A program made the translations under genes and the position numbers. Source: Janibacter sp. Soil728 (GTDB lineage Bacteria; Actinomycetota; Actinomycetes; Actinomycetales; Dermatophilaceae). From it: a stretch of 64,000 bases of DNA. Under the pieces are notes generated by a model. It saw nothing but the letters and a program-made list of their open reading frames with translations. It ran no database searches and was not told the origin of the DNA. The stretch lies in assembly GCF_001428305.1 (NCBI RefSeq), contig NZ_LMRZ01000001.1, positions 620,289 through 684,288 of the forward strand, given 5' to 3'. Shown here piece by piece: positions 21,842 through 25,536 of the stretch (positions within the stretch are counted from its first letter, which is position 1; every line of letters starts with the position of its first letter).

Positions 21842-22341
21842 TGACACCGTCCCAGCTGCTCATCGACTCCTTCGAGCGCGTCCGCGAGGGCGCCCTCGCC
21901 GCCGTCGACGGGCTGAGCGAGGAGCAGCTGGCCCACCGGGTCGCCCCGGACGCCAACTCCATCGCCTGGCTGGTGTGGCACGCCTACCGTGTCCAGGACG
22001 AGCACCTCGCCGATGCCGCCGGGCTCCAGCAGGTCTGGGCCGCACGGGGGTTCATCGAGCACTTCGACCTCGACATCGACGAGGACGACACCGGTTACGG
22101 GCACACCCCCGAGCAGGTGGGCAAGGTCCGGGCTCCGGCCGAGCTGCTCGCCCGGTACGTCGAGGCGGTGCACCAGCAGACCCTCGCGTGGGTCGGAGGG
22201 CTGTCGGCCGGGGACCTCGACCGTGTCGTCGACACCTCGTGGGACCCGCCGGTCACGCTCGGCGTGCGGATCGTCAGCGTGATCAACGACGACACCCAGC
22301 ACATCGGCCAGGCCGCCTACGTGCGCGGACTGCTCGACTGA
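21841..22341 (+). CDS. DinB-superfamily protein (DUF664, mycothiol-transferase-like)
   Basis: A 166-residue DinB-fold protein. The conserved SIAWLVWHAYRVQDEHLAD and the C-terminal NDDTQHIGQAAYVRGLLD carry histidines at the positions that bind metal in this family. It is translationally coupled to the FrnE-like oxidoreductase gene (TGATG overlap). A thiol oxidoreductase next to a protein of a family that often uses mycothiol suggests a shared role in thiol chemistry; that is inference. It is a different subgroup from the DUF664 protein at 17742. The gene converges with the NrtR-like gene on its right. Confidence 0.88.
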   Translation: MTPSQLLIDSFERVREGALAAVDGLSEEQLAHRVAPDANSIAWLVWHAYRVQDEHLADAAGLQQVWAARGFIEHFDLDIDEDDTGYGHTPEQVGKVRAPAELLARYVEAVHQQTLAWVGGLSAGDLDRVVDTSWDPPVTLGVRIVSVINDDTQHIGQAAYVRGLLD

Positions 22342-22378
22342 CGGTCTGCCCCTCTCGGTCGCGGCAGCACGGGCCTGC

Positions 22379-23047
22379 TCAGCGCGTGAGCGGCGGGTTG
22401 AGCTGCTCGACCGGTCCGCGCCGGTAGAGCTTGGCCGGTCGTCCCGGCTCCGCGCTCGAGGCGCCCCCGGTCTCCTCGAGAAAACCGGGCGTCTTGGTCA
22501 CCTTGCGGTGGAAGTTGCGGGGGTCCAGCCGTTCGCCCCACACCGCCTCGTAGACCTCCCGCAGCTGGCTGACGGTGAACTCCGGCGGGCAGAAGGCTGC
22601 GCCCAGCGAGCTGTACTCGAGCTTGGCCCGCGCGCGCTCGACCCCGTCGCGCAGGATCTCGTCGTGGTCGAAGGCCAGGCCCAGGTCGAGTGCGCCCGCC
22701 ACGGGCCACCACTGCGCCTCGGCAGCGTCGGTGCCTGCGGCCGGTGTCGGAGCATCCGGCGTCAGCGCGAGGTGCGCCACCGTCACCGTCCGGCCCCGCG
22801 GGTCGCGGTCGGGCGCGCCATAGGTCGCCAGCTGCTCGAGGTGGATGTCGGTCAGCCCGGTCTCCTCCCGCAGCTCCCGGTCGGCCGCCGCGCGCAGGTC
22901 CTCGTCCGGGAGCACGTAACCACCCGGCAGCGCCCAGTCGCCGACGAAGGGGGGAACCCCCCTTCGCACGAGCAGGACGCACAGCTCGCCGGAGCGGACC
23001 GTGAGGATCGCCAGGTCCACGGTGACGGCCATGAGTGGTGCGGTCAT
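22379..23047 (-). CDS. Nudix hydrolase with C-terminal winged helix, NrtR-like regulator
   Basis: A 222-residue protein with two parts. Residues about 5-145 form a Nudix domain with an intact Nudix box starting at G43, including REL-REE-TGL at 57-65. Residues about 150-220 form a winged-helix domain (FTVSQLREVYEAVWGERLDPRNFHRKV). That pairing is diagnostic of the NrtR family, repressors of NAD metabolism that sense ADP-ribose. Many NrtR proteins have lost the catalytic residues; here the box is complete, so it may still hydrolyse substrate. It diverges from the SPFH/NAD-kinase-like operon, with two matching palindromes between the starts. The ATG at 23047 is chosen; an internal ATG at 23032 is possible. 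Confidence 0.9.
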   Translation of the reverse strand: MTAPLMAVTVDLAILTVRSGELCVLLVRRGVPPFVGDWALPGGYVLPDEDLRAAADRELREETGLTDIHLEQLATYGAPDRDPRGRTVTVAHLALTPDAPTPAAGTDAAEAQWWPVAGALDLGLAFDHDEILRDGVERARAKLEYSSLGAAFCPPEFTVSQLREVYEAVWGERLDPRNFHRKVTKTPGFLEETGGASSAEPGRPAKLYRRGPVEQLNPPLTR

Positions 23048-23070
23048 GGGAGCAGCCTAACCGCCTTTAT

Positions 23071-23083
23071 CGTCAAGTTGACG
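23071..23083. promoter_or_regulatory. Putative NrtR operator, site 1
   Basis: CGTCAAGTTGACG, a 13-bp dyad with six perfect base pairs around a central G, flanked by TTTAT and TTTAG. It lies 24 bp upstream of the nrtR-like start. It shares CGTCA-N3-TGACG and the preceding TTAT with site 2. AT-rich flanks set both apart from the surrounding GC-rich DNA. Confidence 0.75.
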
Positions 23084-23104
23084 TTTAGGTCTCGTCGGAG
23101 TTAT

Positions 23105-23117
23105 CGTCAACATGACG
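23105..23117. promoter_or_regulatory. Putative NrtR operator, site 2
   Basis: CGTCAACATGACG, with CGTCA and TGACG arms, preceded by TTAT as in site 1. Centre-to-centre distance to site 1 is 34 bp. It ends 26 bp before the start of the SPFH gene, so bound repressor would block rightward transcription. Confidence 0.72.
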
Positions 23118-23143
23118 CAAACAACCCAAGGAGGCGCGTCACC

Positions 23144-24166
23144 ATGGCAACCATCACCAGCTACCCCTTCGTCACCCACCTGCGGACCCCGGCCACGAGC
23201 TATGTCCAGCACCTCGCGCACGGCACCCTCAAGCACGAGGGGGTCGGCAGCTCCTTCTGGTTCCGCCGGCTGCCCGCGGTGCTCAGCGAGGTGCCGGTCG
23301 ACGACCGCGAGCAGGCCGTCCTCGTCAAGGTCCGCGCGAGCGACCTGCAGGAGGTCAACGTGCCGGGTGTCGTCACCTACCGCATCGCCCAGCCGGCGAC
23401 GGCCGCGGCCCGAGTGGACTTCGGGATCGACGCGAAGGGGGGAGCCTGGCTCGGCCGTCCCCTCGAGGTCGTGGGCGCCACGGTCCACGGGGCAGCGGCC
23501 GACGCGATCACCGCAGGACTGACCGGCCGGCCCCTGGCGCAGATCCTCATGAGCGACCCGGCAGACCTGGCCGGGCGGGTCATCCGGCGCCTCACCGCCG
23601 ACCCTCGCCTGGCCGACCTCGGCATCGCCGTCGTCGCCGTCCGCTTCGACGTGCTGCGGGCCGACCCGGACGTCGAGCGCGCGCTGCAGCTCCCCTCGCG
23701 GGAGCAGATCCAGCAGGAGGCCGACAAGGCGACCTTCGAGCGCCGGGCCGTCGCCGTCGAGCGCGAGGCCGCGATCGGGGAGAACGAGCTGACCAACCAG
23801 ATCGACCTGGCCCGCCGCGAGGAGGAGCTCATCGCGCAGCGGGGTGCCAACCGGGTGCGCGAGGCGCAGGACGCGGCAGCCGCCGACCGGGTCAAGGTCA
23901 CGGCGGAGGGCGAGCGCACCGTCTCGCTCGCGAGGGCGAGCGCCGAGGCGACCGAGGCCATCGGTGTCGCTGAGGCGCAGGCCGAGCGGGCCCGTCTGGC
24001 CGCCCAGTCGGAGGTGTCGCCGGAGGTGCTCATGGCGCTGGCACTCCGCGAGCTCGCGGGCAACCTGCCCGACATCGACCAGCTCGTCCTGACGCCCGAC
24101 GTCGTGAGCAGCGTGCTGGGTCGCCTGGCCGTCGGTCAGGCTCCGGCCGCGACCCAGGAGGTCTGA
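23144..24166 (+). CDS. SPFH / band 7 domain protein
   Basis: A 340-residue protein. Residues about 20-190 look like an SPFH (band 7, stomatin-like) domain, including VLVKVRASDLQEVNVPGVVTYRI. A long, highly charged coiled coil follows (about 195-300). Unlike typical slipins there is no N-terminal membrane helix, so it may be peripheral or cytosolic. The ATG at 23144 follows AAGGAGG, an excellent ribosome binding site. It is the first gene of a unit with the NAD-kinase-like gene four bases downstream, and is divergent from an NrtR-like regulator with two operators. Its role is unknown; the context points to NAD(P) or ADP-ribose metabolism. Confidence 0.85.
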   Translation: MATITSYPFVTHLRTPATSYVQHLAHGTLKHEGVGSSFWFRRLPAVLSEVPVDDREQAVLVKVRASDLQEVNVPGVVTYRIAQPATAAARVDFGIDAKGGAWLGRPLEVVGATVHGAAADAITAGLTGRPLAQILMSDPADLAGRVIRRLTADPRLADLGIAVVAVRFDVLRADPDVERALQLPSREQIQQEADKATFERRAVAVEREAAIGENELTNQIDLARREEELIAQRGANRVREAQDAAAADRVKVTAEGERTVSLARASAEATEAIGVAEAQAERARLAAQSEVSPEVLMALALRELAGNLPDIDQLVLTPDVVSSVLGRLAVGQAPAATQEV

Positions 24167-24169
24167 GCG

Positions 24170-25096
24170 ATGGCCGCCCCACGGGTCGTCGTCGCCCACC
24201 GGGCGAGCGAGTACGACGAGCTGCTCGCCCGGCACGGCACCCGCGGTCAGGTCGGCTTCGTCCTCGGCACCCGGGGGCGCGCGATCGAGGAGGTCGACGC
24301 CGGCCACGAGGCGCTGGTCGCGGCGCTGGCGACCGTGGCGGCGGCGATCCCCGCCGACTGGCGCCGGGCGGCGGTGGAGCGGGCCGAGCTGGCGCGCTTC
24401 GTCTTCGAGCCGGGCGACATCGTCGTCGCCGTGGGATCCGATGGCCTGGTCGCCAACCTCGCGAAGTACCTGCGCGGTCAGCCGGTCATCGGGGTCGACC
24501 CGCGCGAAGGGGTGAACGCCGGAGTTCTCGTGACCCACTCCGCGGCGGCCGTGGCGGGACTCCTGCCGGCCGTGGCGAAGGCGTCGTCCAGAGGTGCGAC
24601 GGAGGAGCCTCGAAGGGGAGTGGCCCGCACCCTCGAGCGCACCATGGTCGAGGCGATGGCCGACGACGGGCAGCGGCTGCTCGCACTCAACGAGGTCTTC
24701 GTCGGGCAGGCCGGGCACCAGTCGGCGCGCTACTCGCTGCAGGTCGGTGGTCGGGGAGAGCGGCAGTCCTCGTCGGGCGTGATCGTCGGGACCGGTACGG
24801 GGTCGACAGGTTGGTGCGCCTCGCTGCAACGCGTCCAGGCGCCGGACCTCCCGCTGCCCGAGCCGACCTCGGCCCGGTTGTCGTGGTTCGTCCGTGAGCC
24901 CTGGCCCTCGCCGAGCACAGGCGCCGACCTCGTCGCCGGAACGCTGGCCGAGGGGGAGGAGCTCGTCGTCGACGTCGAGTCGGAGGGCCTGGTCGTCTTC
25001 GGTGACGGCATGGAGGCGGACCGGCTGACCTTGGGCTGGGGACAACGGGTCGTCGTGCGCCGGGCACCCGAGGTGCTGCGTACCGTGGTCGCGTGA
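24170..25096 (+). CDS. NAD-kinase-like protein
   Basis: A 308-residue protein with marks of the NAD kinase/diacylglycerol kinase fold. GSDG at residues 89-92 stands where NAD kinases have GGDG. NEV at 174-176 matches their NE motif, and GTGTGSTGW at 207-215 matches the conserved TPTGSTAY region. The first glycine of GGDG is changed to a serine position shift (AVGSDG), so activity or substrate may differ from NadK. It is almost certainly not the housekeeping NAD kinase. It lies 3 bp after the SPFH gene and overlaps the next gene start (GTGA). Co-regulation by the NrtR-like protein supports a role in nucleotide cofactor metabolism. Confidence 0.8.
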   Translation: MAAPRVVVAHRASEYDELLARHGTRGQVGFVLGTRGRAIEEVDAGHEALVAALATVAAAIPADWRRAAVERAELARFVFEPGDIVVAVGSDGLVANLAKYLRGQPVIGVDPREGVNAGVLVTHSAAAVAGLLPAVAKASSRGATEEPRRGVARTLERTMVEAMADDGQRLLALNEVFVGQAGHQSARYSLQVGGRGERQSSSGVIVGTGTGSTGWCASLQRVQAPDLPLPEPTSARLSWFVREPWPSPSTGADLVAGTLAEGEELVVDVESEGLVVFGDGMEADRLTLGWGQRVVVRRAPEVLRTVVA

Positions 25097-25536
25097 GCGA
25101 ATTCGTGGTGCAGATGGAAACCGAGCTGGAGCCCCAGGTCGCGTGGGCGCGGTTGTGGGATCTCGACCAGCACACGGCCGTCATCCCGCTGACGACCGTC
25201 ACGCTCGACGCGCCTGCTCTCGCCCTCGCTGCGGGCGCCGGGTTCACCGGCCGCACGGCACTCGGCCCCGTCGGCTTCGACGACACGATGCGGGTCGTGG
25301 TCTGGGAGCCGCCCACCACGGGCGAGGGCCGGGCCGTCGTGGCCAAGTCGGGGGCCCTCATCGGCGGTCGGATCGAGGTGATCGTGGTCCCCTTCATCGG
25401 AGGTGGTGCTCAGATCACCTGGCGCCAGGACGTGCAGCTGCCGTGGCTCCCTTCGCGCCTGTCGCGGCTGGAGGGCGCCGCCGCCCGGCTTGCCGCGCCT
25501 GGATATCGCCGGGTGCTGCGGACCTTGCTGGACTGA
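25093..25536 (+). CDS. SRPBCC-fold protein
   Basis: A 147-residue protein with the polyketide-cyclase/START-like (SRPBCC) pattern: MSEFVVQMETELEPQVAWARLWDLDQHTAVIPL at the N-terminus and a long C-terminal helix (LEGAAARLAAPGYRRVLRTLLD). No catalytic residues can be named. The GTG at 25093 overlaps the stop of the NAD-kinase-like gene, so it is probably part of that transcript, though proteins of this fold bind very diverse hydrophobic ligands and a functional link is not evident. The VOC gene follows after 28 bp on the same strand. Confidence 0.75.
   Translation: MSEFVVQMETELEPQVAWARLWDLDQHTAVIPLTTVTLDAPALALAAGAGFTGRTALGPVGFDDTMRVVVWEPPTTGEGRAVVAKSGALIGGRIEVIVVPFIGGGAQITWRQDVQLPWLPSRLSRLEGAAARLAAPGYRRVLRTLLD

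Follow-up and report, generated by a model that had tools for sequence, protein, structure and literature searches.

We describe a three-gene unit of Janibacter sp. Soil728 at positions 22379-25096 of the window, a stretch of 64,000 nucleotides (contig NZ_LMRZ01000001.1, positions 620,289 to 684,288), in which the gene of a Nudix and winged-helix regulator diverges from an SPFH gene followed by an NADK2-like kinase gene, with two palindromes in between. This arrangement is genuine, occurs widely and has apparently not been described before; the three genes are probably an uncharacterised system related to nicotinamide adenine dinucleotide (NAD), likely one in which a repressor controls an SPFH-kinase pair linked to NAD chemistry. 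Comparisons of sequences and predicted structures establish the module, its conservation, its operators, the link of these operators to one regulator clade, the predicted kinase fold and the kinship of the kinase with NADK2. Our preferred and still tentative reading, with a probability of about 0.45, is that of a module responsive to NAD breakdown, in which a repressor would control an SPFH protein and an NADK2-like kinase. Its features are as follows.

22379-23047, minus strand: Nudix and winged-helix regulator of the NrtR/AraR type, 222 residues (Pfam NUDIX 3.8e-20, NrtR_WHD 2.3e-17)
23067-23087: operator 1, a palindrome conserved across loci, holding the -35-like TTGACG (23078-23083)
23101-23121: operator 2, a palindrome conserved across loci, holding the -10-like TATCGT (23102-23107)
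23144-24166, plus strand: SPFH (Band 7) protein, 340 residues, with a long helix and without a transmembrane helix (Pfam Band_7 1.3e-9)
24170-25096, plus strand: NADK2-like kinase, 308 residues, GxDG motif at residues 89-92 (here GSDG)
22339-25092, approximate: stretch missing from same-genus genomes without the module, flanked by a mycothiol transferase gene (end 22341) and a gene from 25093

Conservation of the SPFH-kinase pair

The coordinates and domain matches confirmed the arrangement given in the initial annotation, a Nudix regulator divergent from an SPFH and kinase-fold pair with two palindromes between them; the SPFH stop codon and the kinase start are 3 nt apart. To compare loci, one genome per species was scanned, yielding 154 relatives of the kinase, of which the best 80, all actinobacterial, were kept, and alignments A1-A3 were made from 43, 39 and 32 chosen sequences. 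In 79 of the 80 loci the gene immediately before the kinase, in the same orientation, encodes an SPFH protein; the exception (L029) begins at a contig end.

Since these loci had been chosen by kinase similarity, we also examined 396 genomes sampled evenly across the phylum, our own included. The kinase occurs in 13 of them (12 strong matches and one split over two frames) and an SPFH protein of this type in 14; all 13 kinases adjoin the SPFH gene, and the fourteenth SPFH gene is cut by a contig end. Eleven weak kinase matches in this sample were counted as ordinary NAD kinases; eight were fetched, and all eight carry GGDG and PTGSTA. The regulator is found at E 1e-50 or better in 46 genomes, including 11 of the 13 with the kinase (10 strong); in genomes G449 and G328 the pair is accompanied only by diverged Nudix genes. 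In their distribution, the SPFH and kinase genes thus behave as one unit, with which the regulator is associated more loosely. The three proteins have correlated pairwise distances (r 0.75, 0.61 and 0.73, with n of 38, 31 and 29, the Nudix correlations excluding L073), and none of 2000 permutations was as high, as would be expected of genes inherited jointly. On a divergent contig of the same phylum (L158), regulator, SPFH and kinase genes stand in that order on one strand.

This conservation bears on whether an ordinary second NAD kinase has come to lie by an unrelated SPFH gene through accidental proximity. Each domain alone is common, and our genome has three other SPFH matches; however, the side-by-side position of the two genes in 79 of 80 loci and in other phyla, the conserved shared promoter and the co-divergence make this explanation highly improbable. 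A local accident bringing together all three genes was likewise rejected, since none of the 396 genomes has an SPFH protein of this type without the kinase, bar the contig-cut case.

The next gene, 25093-25536, has a start codon overlapping the kinase stop codon and may be co-transcribed here. A fourth conserved gene of the unit was considered and rejected: clustering of open reading frames around the loci (leaving out L014, L029 and L068) shows no such gene, and the gene at 25093 is retained in same-genus genomes without the module.

Two operators cover the SPFH promoter

Within the 221 bases scanned there is a single promoter-like pair, TTGACG-18-TATCGT, whose -35 element lies in the first palindrome and whose -10 element lies in the second. 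The palindrome pattern was found twice against 0.02 expected by chance, a figure that is partly circular because the pattern was derived from these two sites; conservation across loci is the better test. Two operators (at least 13 of 18 positions) were found within 150 bp of the SPFH gene in 74 of 77 actinobacterial loci, a count omitting L029 and L059, which have too little upstream sequence, and L014. Their spacing is 33-34 bp in 69 of the 74 two-site loci. None of 7567 tiles taken from other parts of these loci holds two operators, nor does any of 1540 dinucleotide shuffles, although the shuffles overstate the signal because the operator consensus was built from these same related loci.

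Displaced regulators offer a better test than the shuffles. A regulator gene is adjacent and divergent within 400 bp in 55 of the 77 loci with sufficient upstream sequence, leaving 22 without an adjacent regulator. We searched the genomes of eight of these 22: seven hold a regulator homologue of 61-67% identity elsewhere, in L073 merely about 4.7 kb away, and just upstream of each stands an operator matching at 15-16 of 18 positions. In the eighth (L048), the regulator homologue reaches 39% only, and the SPFH gene has no operator. Among less similar regulator paralogues, L118-L122 are without an operator at 13 of 18, and L116 and L117 reach 13. Both palindromes of the initial annotation are thus present and conserved, and they are associated with this regulator clade.

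In our own genome the operator pattern (at most three mismatches) occurs at 12 places, two of them at this locus, and the whole TATCGTCA half is kept at these two alone. Eight of the other ten were examined, of which seven lie inside long, likely coding frames rich in GC at third codon positions and one is ambiguous; by sequence, no NAD gene was seen as an operator target among these eight. A looser pattern run on 15 other genomes gave many places among the matches listed, and fewer in a reversed control.

A Nudix regulator related to NrtR

The regulator consists of a Nudix domain fused to an NrtR_WHD domain, both Pfam matches being above cut-off. Against the NCBIfam model NtrR for the ADP-ribose-responsive repressor it scores 147.6 bits, with a cut-off of 400, and by this score is best regarded as a relative of that repressor and not as its equivalog. 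The divergent regulator homologues share 52-93% identity with the window protein over the aligned part. The Nudix box (G-x5-E-x7-REUxEExGU) is intact, bearing out the initial annotation on this point together with the Pfam matches. Glu49, Arg57, Glu58, Glu61 and Glu62 are invariant in 32 aligned actinobacterial relatives, Gly64 being nearly so, and the displaced regulators likewise keep the five residues. Degenerate boxes occur in all six of the proteobacterial regulators that were examined, as well as in three divergent ones from actinobacteria (L156-L158). Hydrolysis is therefore not essential to the system, and Nudix catalysis as one of its requirements was rejected on these nine copies; in one branch of the regulators, hydrolysis may serve to reset the signal.

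Regulators of this kind also stand elsewhere. In Streptomyces-like genomes (L149, L150 and L151) the regulator stands apart and carries an operator of its own. The genomes of L150 and L151 lack the SPFH-kinase pair, and in these two the regulator has close by a gene that, judged by eye, resembles a helicase. Our own genome has a second NrtR_WHD gene (L095 995-1695, near C3 95861), read as two overlapping frames of 122 and 128 residues, so that it may represent a Nudix regulator that is broken or mis-framed; at 13 of 18 positions, no operator like that of the module adjoins it.

An SPFH protein without a membrane helix

The Pfam Band_7 match of the SPFH protein is above cut-off. SPFH proteins are usually linked to membranes; this one, as the initial annotation had held, has no membrane helix, its highest 19-residue Kyte-Doolittle mean being 1.2, and the predicted model agrees. 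The monomer model (predicted local distance difference test score, pLDDT, 86.8; predicted template modelling score, pTM, 0.54) comprises an SPFH domain and a single helix of about 114 residues. In Foldseek the best match is HflK (7vhq_E, 1.4e-11), followed by erlin, flotillin, stomatin and prohibitin; many of the structural matches superpose poorly overall owing to the long helix.

A kinase closest to mitochondrial NADK2

The kinase lies below every curated Pfam and NCBIfam cut-off in the scans made: Pfam NAD_kinase gives no match up to E 0.1, and the NCBIfam NAD kinase match is weak (2.8e-6, 26.7 bits, with a cut-off of 211). Across the family, NAD_kinase matches 7 of 19 members, with a best E of 0.0072, and DAGK_cat matches one of 19, at 0.07. 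The predicted structure (pLDDT 93.3) has an NAD-kinase fold. Ranked by VIA Z, human mitochondrial NADK2 comes first (24.5, 2.8 A, 280 residues) and Pseudomonas aeruginosa NADK next (21.8). NAD kinases alone appear in the rows listed, where the absence of lipid kinases is no evidence. A profile of the kinase family gives NADK2 an E-value of 8.1e-21, against 1e-6 for the NAD kinase that follows; with single sequences, the window kinase finds NADK2 (3.2e-7) and no other NAD kinase, and the Rhizobium kinase has matches to NADK2 (5.7e-8) and to yeast POS5 (0.0053). The ordinary NAD kinase of our genome (C5:524084) shows the reverse pattern, with human cytosolic NADK at 2.2e-30 and NADK2 at 0.0011. 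By these similarity searches, the kinase family appears closer to NADK2 than to the cytosolic and bacterial enzymes. The NAD-kinase fold of the initial annotation is thus supported by the predicted model and can be narrowed to an NADK2-like one.

The initial annotation had also pointed to GSDG at residues 89-92 in place of GGDG. Position and letters are right, but GSDG is not the defining change: among 43 aligned kinases the norm is GQDG (37), with GPDG in five, GSDG in the window protein alone and GGDG in none. Asp91, the catalytic aspartate, is invariant in 19 kinases from three phyla, as are Asn174, Thr213 and Trp215, and an NE/D motif and a second conserved region are kept at equivalent places as LN[ED] and TGxG-x-T. 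Excerpts of PMC8553519 name GGDG, NE/D and region II as the motifs common to all NAD kinases, so that this family departs in one of the three.

With GGDG replaced in all 43 sequences and domain cut-offs missed as above, the substrate may not be NAD(H). Candidates would be ADP-ribose itself or a damaged or cyclic form of it, an adenine dinucleotide other than NAD(H) or a lipid of the membrane, with the module disposing of the product or signalling with it. The usual membrane association of SPFH proteins and the presence of an ordinary NAD kinase in the same genome are in favour of such a substrate; given that enzyme, bulk NADP supply would not be the need. ADP-ribose, moreover, frees MsNrtR, a regulator of the same class, from DNA, with hydrolysis undetectable (excerpts of PMC6800001). 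Weighing against it, the family has kept both the NE/D motif and the second region typical of NAD kinases, the closest relative of the kinase, NADK2, is itself an NAD kinase, and the lipid-kinase domain DAGK_cat appears in the single weak match given above. We regard this explanation as possible though doubtful.

Distribution in the genus, on plasmids and in other phyla

Among 16 genomes of the genus, six hold the module and nine have the flanking genes side by side without it; in the remaining one (G001) the match to the region was limited to a piece of 403 bp. Eight of the empty junctions are short, and that of G002 leaves about 655 bp between the flanking genes. The module would be loss-prone or mobile, and either gain or loss could account for its pattern in the genus.

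Beyond the genus, the kinase was found in 57 of 72,556 plasmid records, some actinobacterial, at 33-57% identity. Ten of the 57 were examined, and an SPFH gene is adjacent in nine, the exception being pHHV216. A divergent Nudix gene adjoins in six (Rhizobium etli p42f, Cupriavidus, Methylomonas, Providencia, Moraxella and Proteus), which thereby reproduce the three-gene layout at 33-37% kinase identity; pHHV216 is without a neighbouring Nudix gene. At the window locus and in plasmid copies, the SPFH and kinase genes overlap or almost abut. The initial annotation had taken a neighbourhood confined to close relatives as grounds for refutation; the unit is instead conserved far outside that circle, in the actinobacterial loci, in the even sample and in other phyla.

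The plasmid promoters differ in their palindromes. GTC-N5-GAC core repeats recur in the Providencia, Moraxella and Proteus SPFH promoters; Cupriavidus has a different palindrome, and Rhizobium none by the core test, though a 17-bp palindrome is visible in another comparison. The Treponema SPFH-kinase promoter (L144, upstream of 3806), with no adjacent Nudix gene, carries a palindrome of a separate, AGTAGT type that does not resemble the actinobacterial operator.

In the plasmid records seen, the kinase is labelled 'sugar kinase', 'hypothetical protein' and, twice, 'ATP-NAD kinase PpnK-type protein'. The copies of Moraxella (L147 4980-7841), Proteus (L148 5001-7828) and pHHV216 (L197 5980-8844) directly adjoin tetracycline efflux genes, tet(H) with tetR or tet(J). 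There the kinase, named 'hypothetical protein', seems to have hitch-hiked with the resistance gene; in pHHV216 its other annotated neighbour is a transposase and not an SPFH gene. No DNA-level match to the Providencia copy was found in Escherichia coli.

A phage origin was rejected, as none of 50,697 phage records holds the kinase at 1e-5 and no viral fold match was found at E 0.001. Eighteen pattern matches in viral contigs reduced to two relatives, one of which, on a contig filed as viral (L160 1284-3184), is an adjacent SPFH and kinase pair at 24% and 29% identity. Given this pair, some mobile carriage of the module may occur.

Patchy presence, clean empty sites within one genus and plasmid-borne copies would suit an accessory conflict or anti-phage module, guarding or rewiring the NAD pool under attack by an NAD-consuming effector or an ADP-ribosylating phage enzyme, with the Nudix repressor reading the released ADP-ribose. 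Excerpts of PMC9503650 (section 3.8) propose Nudix-sensor repressors for ADP-ribose-linked conflict operons, namely those of ADP-ribosylglycohydrolases; however, in the text of that paper neither SPFH nor NAD kinase appears. Among the known anti-phage defence families of PADLOC, the SPFH protein and the kinase have no match up to E 0.1, and the Nudix gene has a weak one (PDC-S07, 8.3e-5) confined to its Nudix part. Together with the empty phage records and the lack of a fourth conserved neighbour, this makes a defence role decidedly unlikely.

A model for the module and the evidence weighed

In the NAD-breakdown-responsive module that we favour, whose ligand, repression, substrate, physical complex and physiological role we infer, a Nudix and winged-helix repressor of the NrtR kind would sit on two operators covering the -35 and -10 elements of the SPFH promoter and shut down both its own gene and the SPFH-kinase operon. 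A nucleotide from NAD breakdown, ADP-ribose or a relative, would loosen the repressor, and the SPFH protein and the kinase would then be produced by coupled translation. The SPFH protein would build a ring or cage via its long helix, and the NADK2-like kinase would act on or in this assembly, where at one place it would most likely convert NAD(H) to NADP(H) or phosphorylate an NAD-like dinucleotide. The initial annotation had proposed an NAD(P)- or ADP-ribose-responsive system with SPFH as the scaffold of a specialised kinase; this proposal is supported in part, through the conserved unit and its palindromes, while ADP-ribose would be a putative ligand, NAD a putative substrate and SPFH a putative scaffold.

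Several observations weigh against this reading. Four genomes (G241, G402, G420 and G437) keep the regulator, at 1e-105 or better, without SPFH or kinase, and the Treponema, Roseomonas and Kitasatospora plasmid copies are without a neighbouring regulator. The SPFH gene of L047 has no operator though a regulator with an operator occurs elsewhere in its genome, L053 shows one operator site only, and the shuffle control is inflated. By Foldseek E-value, P. aeruginosa NADK ranks first (3.3e-17) and NADK2 a close second. Replacement of the second glycine of GGDG may mean a different reaction, and an ordinary NAD kinase is already at hand in our genome.

A bolder version, which we consider unlikely, would see in the kinase a prokaryotic NADK2 lineage with a dedicated SPFH scaffold, one closer than any other known prokaryotic kinase to the mitochondrial NADK clade of eukaryotes, and in the module a dedicated response to NAD breakdown that makes NADP, or phosphorylated ADP-ribose, on an SPFH assembly. 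In the excerpts cited, the provenance of the eukaryotic mito-clade NADK is called ancient and unknown and the actinobacterial nadK1/nadK2 duplication unrelated to the eukaryotic one (PMC6675116), whereas NADK2 is believed to be of alpha-proteobacterial origin (PMC8553519); the kinase family bears on this disputed origin.

The one-to-one pairing of an SPFH protein with an NADK2 relative also offers a simple two-protein system for testing what an SPFH assembly does for an enzyme. To our knowledge, enzymatic clients of SPFH proteins have seldom been identified. In line with the suggestion of the initial annotation that the system is undescribed, we found no description of a Nudix-SPFH-NADK2-like unit in the open-licence full-text literature, a scope outside which lies the 2008 paper defining NrtR regulons, which may mention such targets; in PMC7159879, SPFH appears in the reference list only.

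Comparison with known systems

The regulator resembles NrtR (SoNrtR, 3gz5 and 3gz6; MsNrtR) in its Nudix domain, NrtR winged helix and divergent promoter with a palindrome, with a profile match to 3gz5 of 2.4e-42. The neighbours differ, being nadABC in NrtR systems and the SPFH and kinase genes here. According to the excerpts of PMC6800001, the Nudix motif of MsNrtR is mutated, whereas that of the window regulator is intact, and the mycobacterial NrtR operator as excerpted, GTTTTCGA-N7-TCGAAAAC, differs from the operator of this system, TTATCGTCAnnnTGACGATAA. The best PDB profile match of the regulator is AraR of Bacteroides (5bs6, 4.5e-43, over 2-210 of 221 positions), which, in the source excerpt, governs arabinose use; the window unit has no sugar genes.

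The kinase shares its fold class, catalytic aspartate and NE/D motif with the ordinary bacterial NAD kinase C5:524084, which has GGDGT and PTGSTAY, whereas the NADK2-like family lacks GGDG. Human mitochondrial NADK2 (7r4j, 7n29) also has GGDGT and is 391 residues long, compared with 308 in the window kinase, at about 23% identity; we know of no SPFH partner of NADK2. The SPFH protein, for its part, has the SPFH domain and long helix of HflK/C and QmcA-YbbJ, solved relatives that are oligomeric, but whereas those proteins have NfeD or FtsH partners, this one has no membrane anchor and a kinase as its partner gene.

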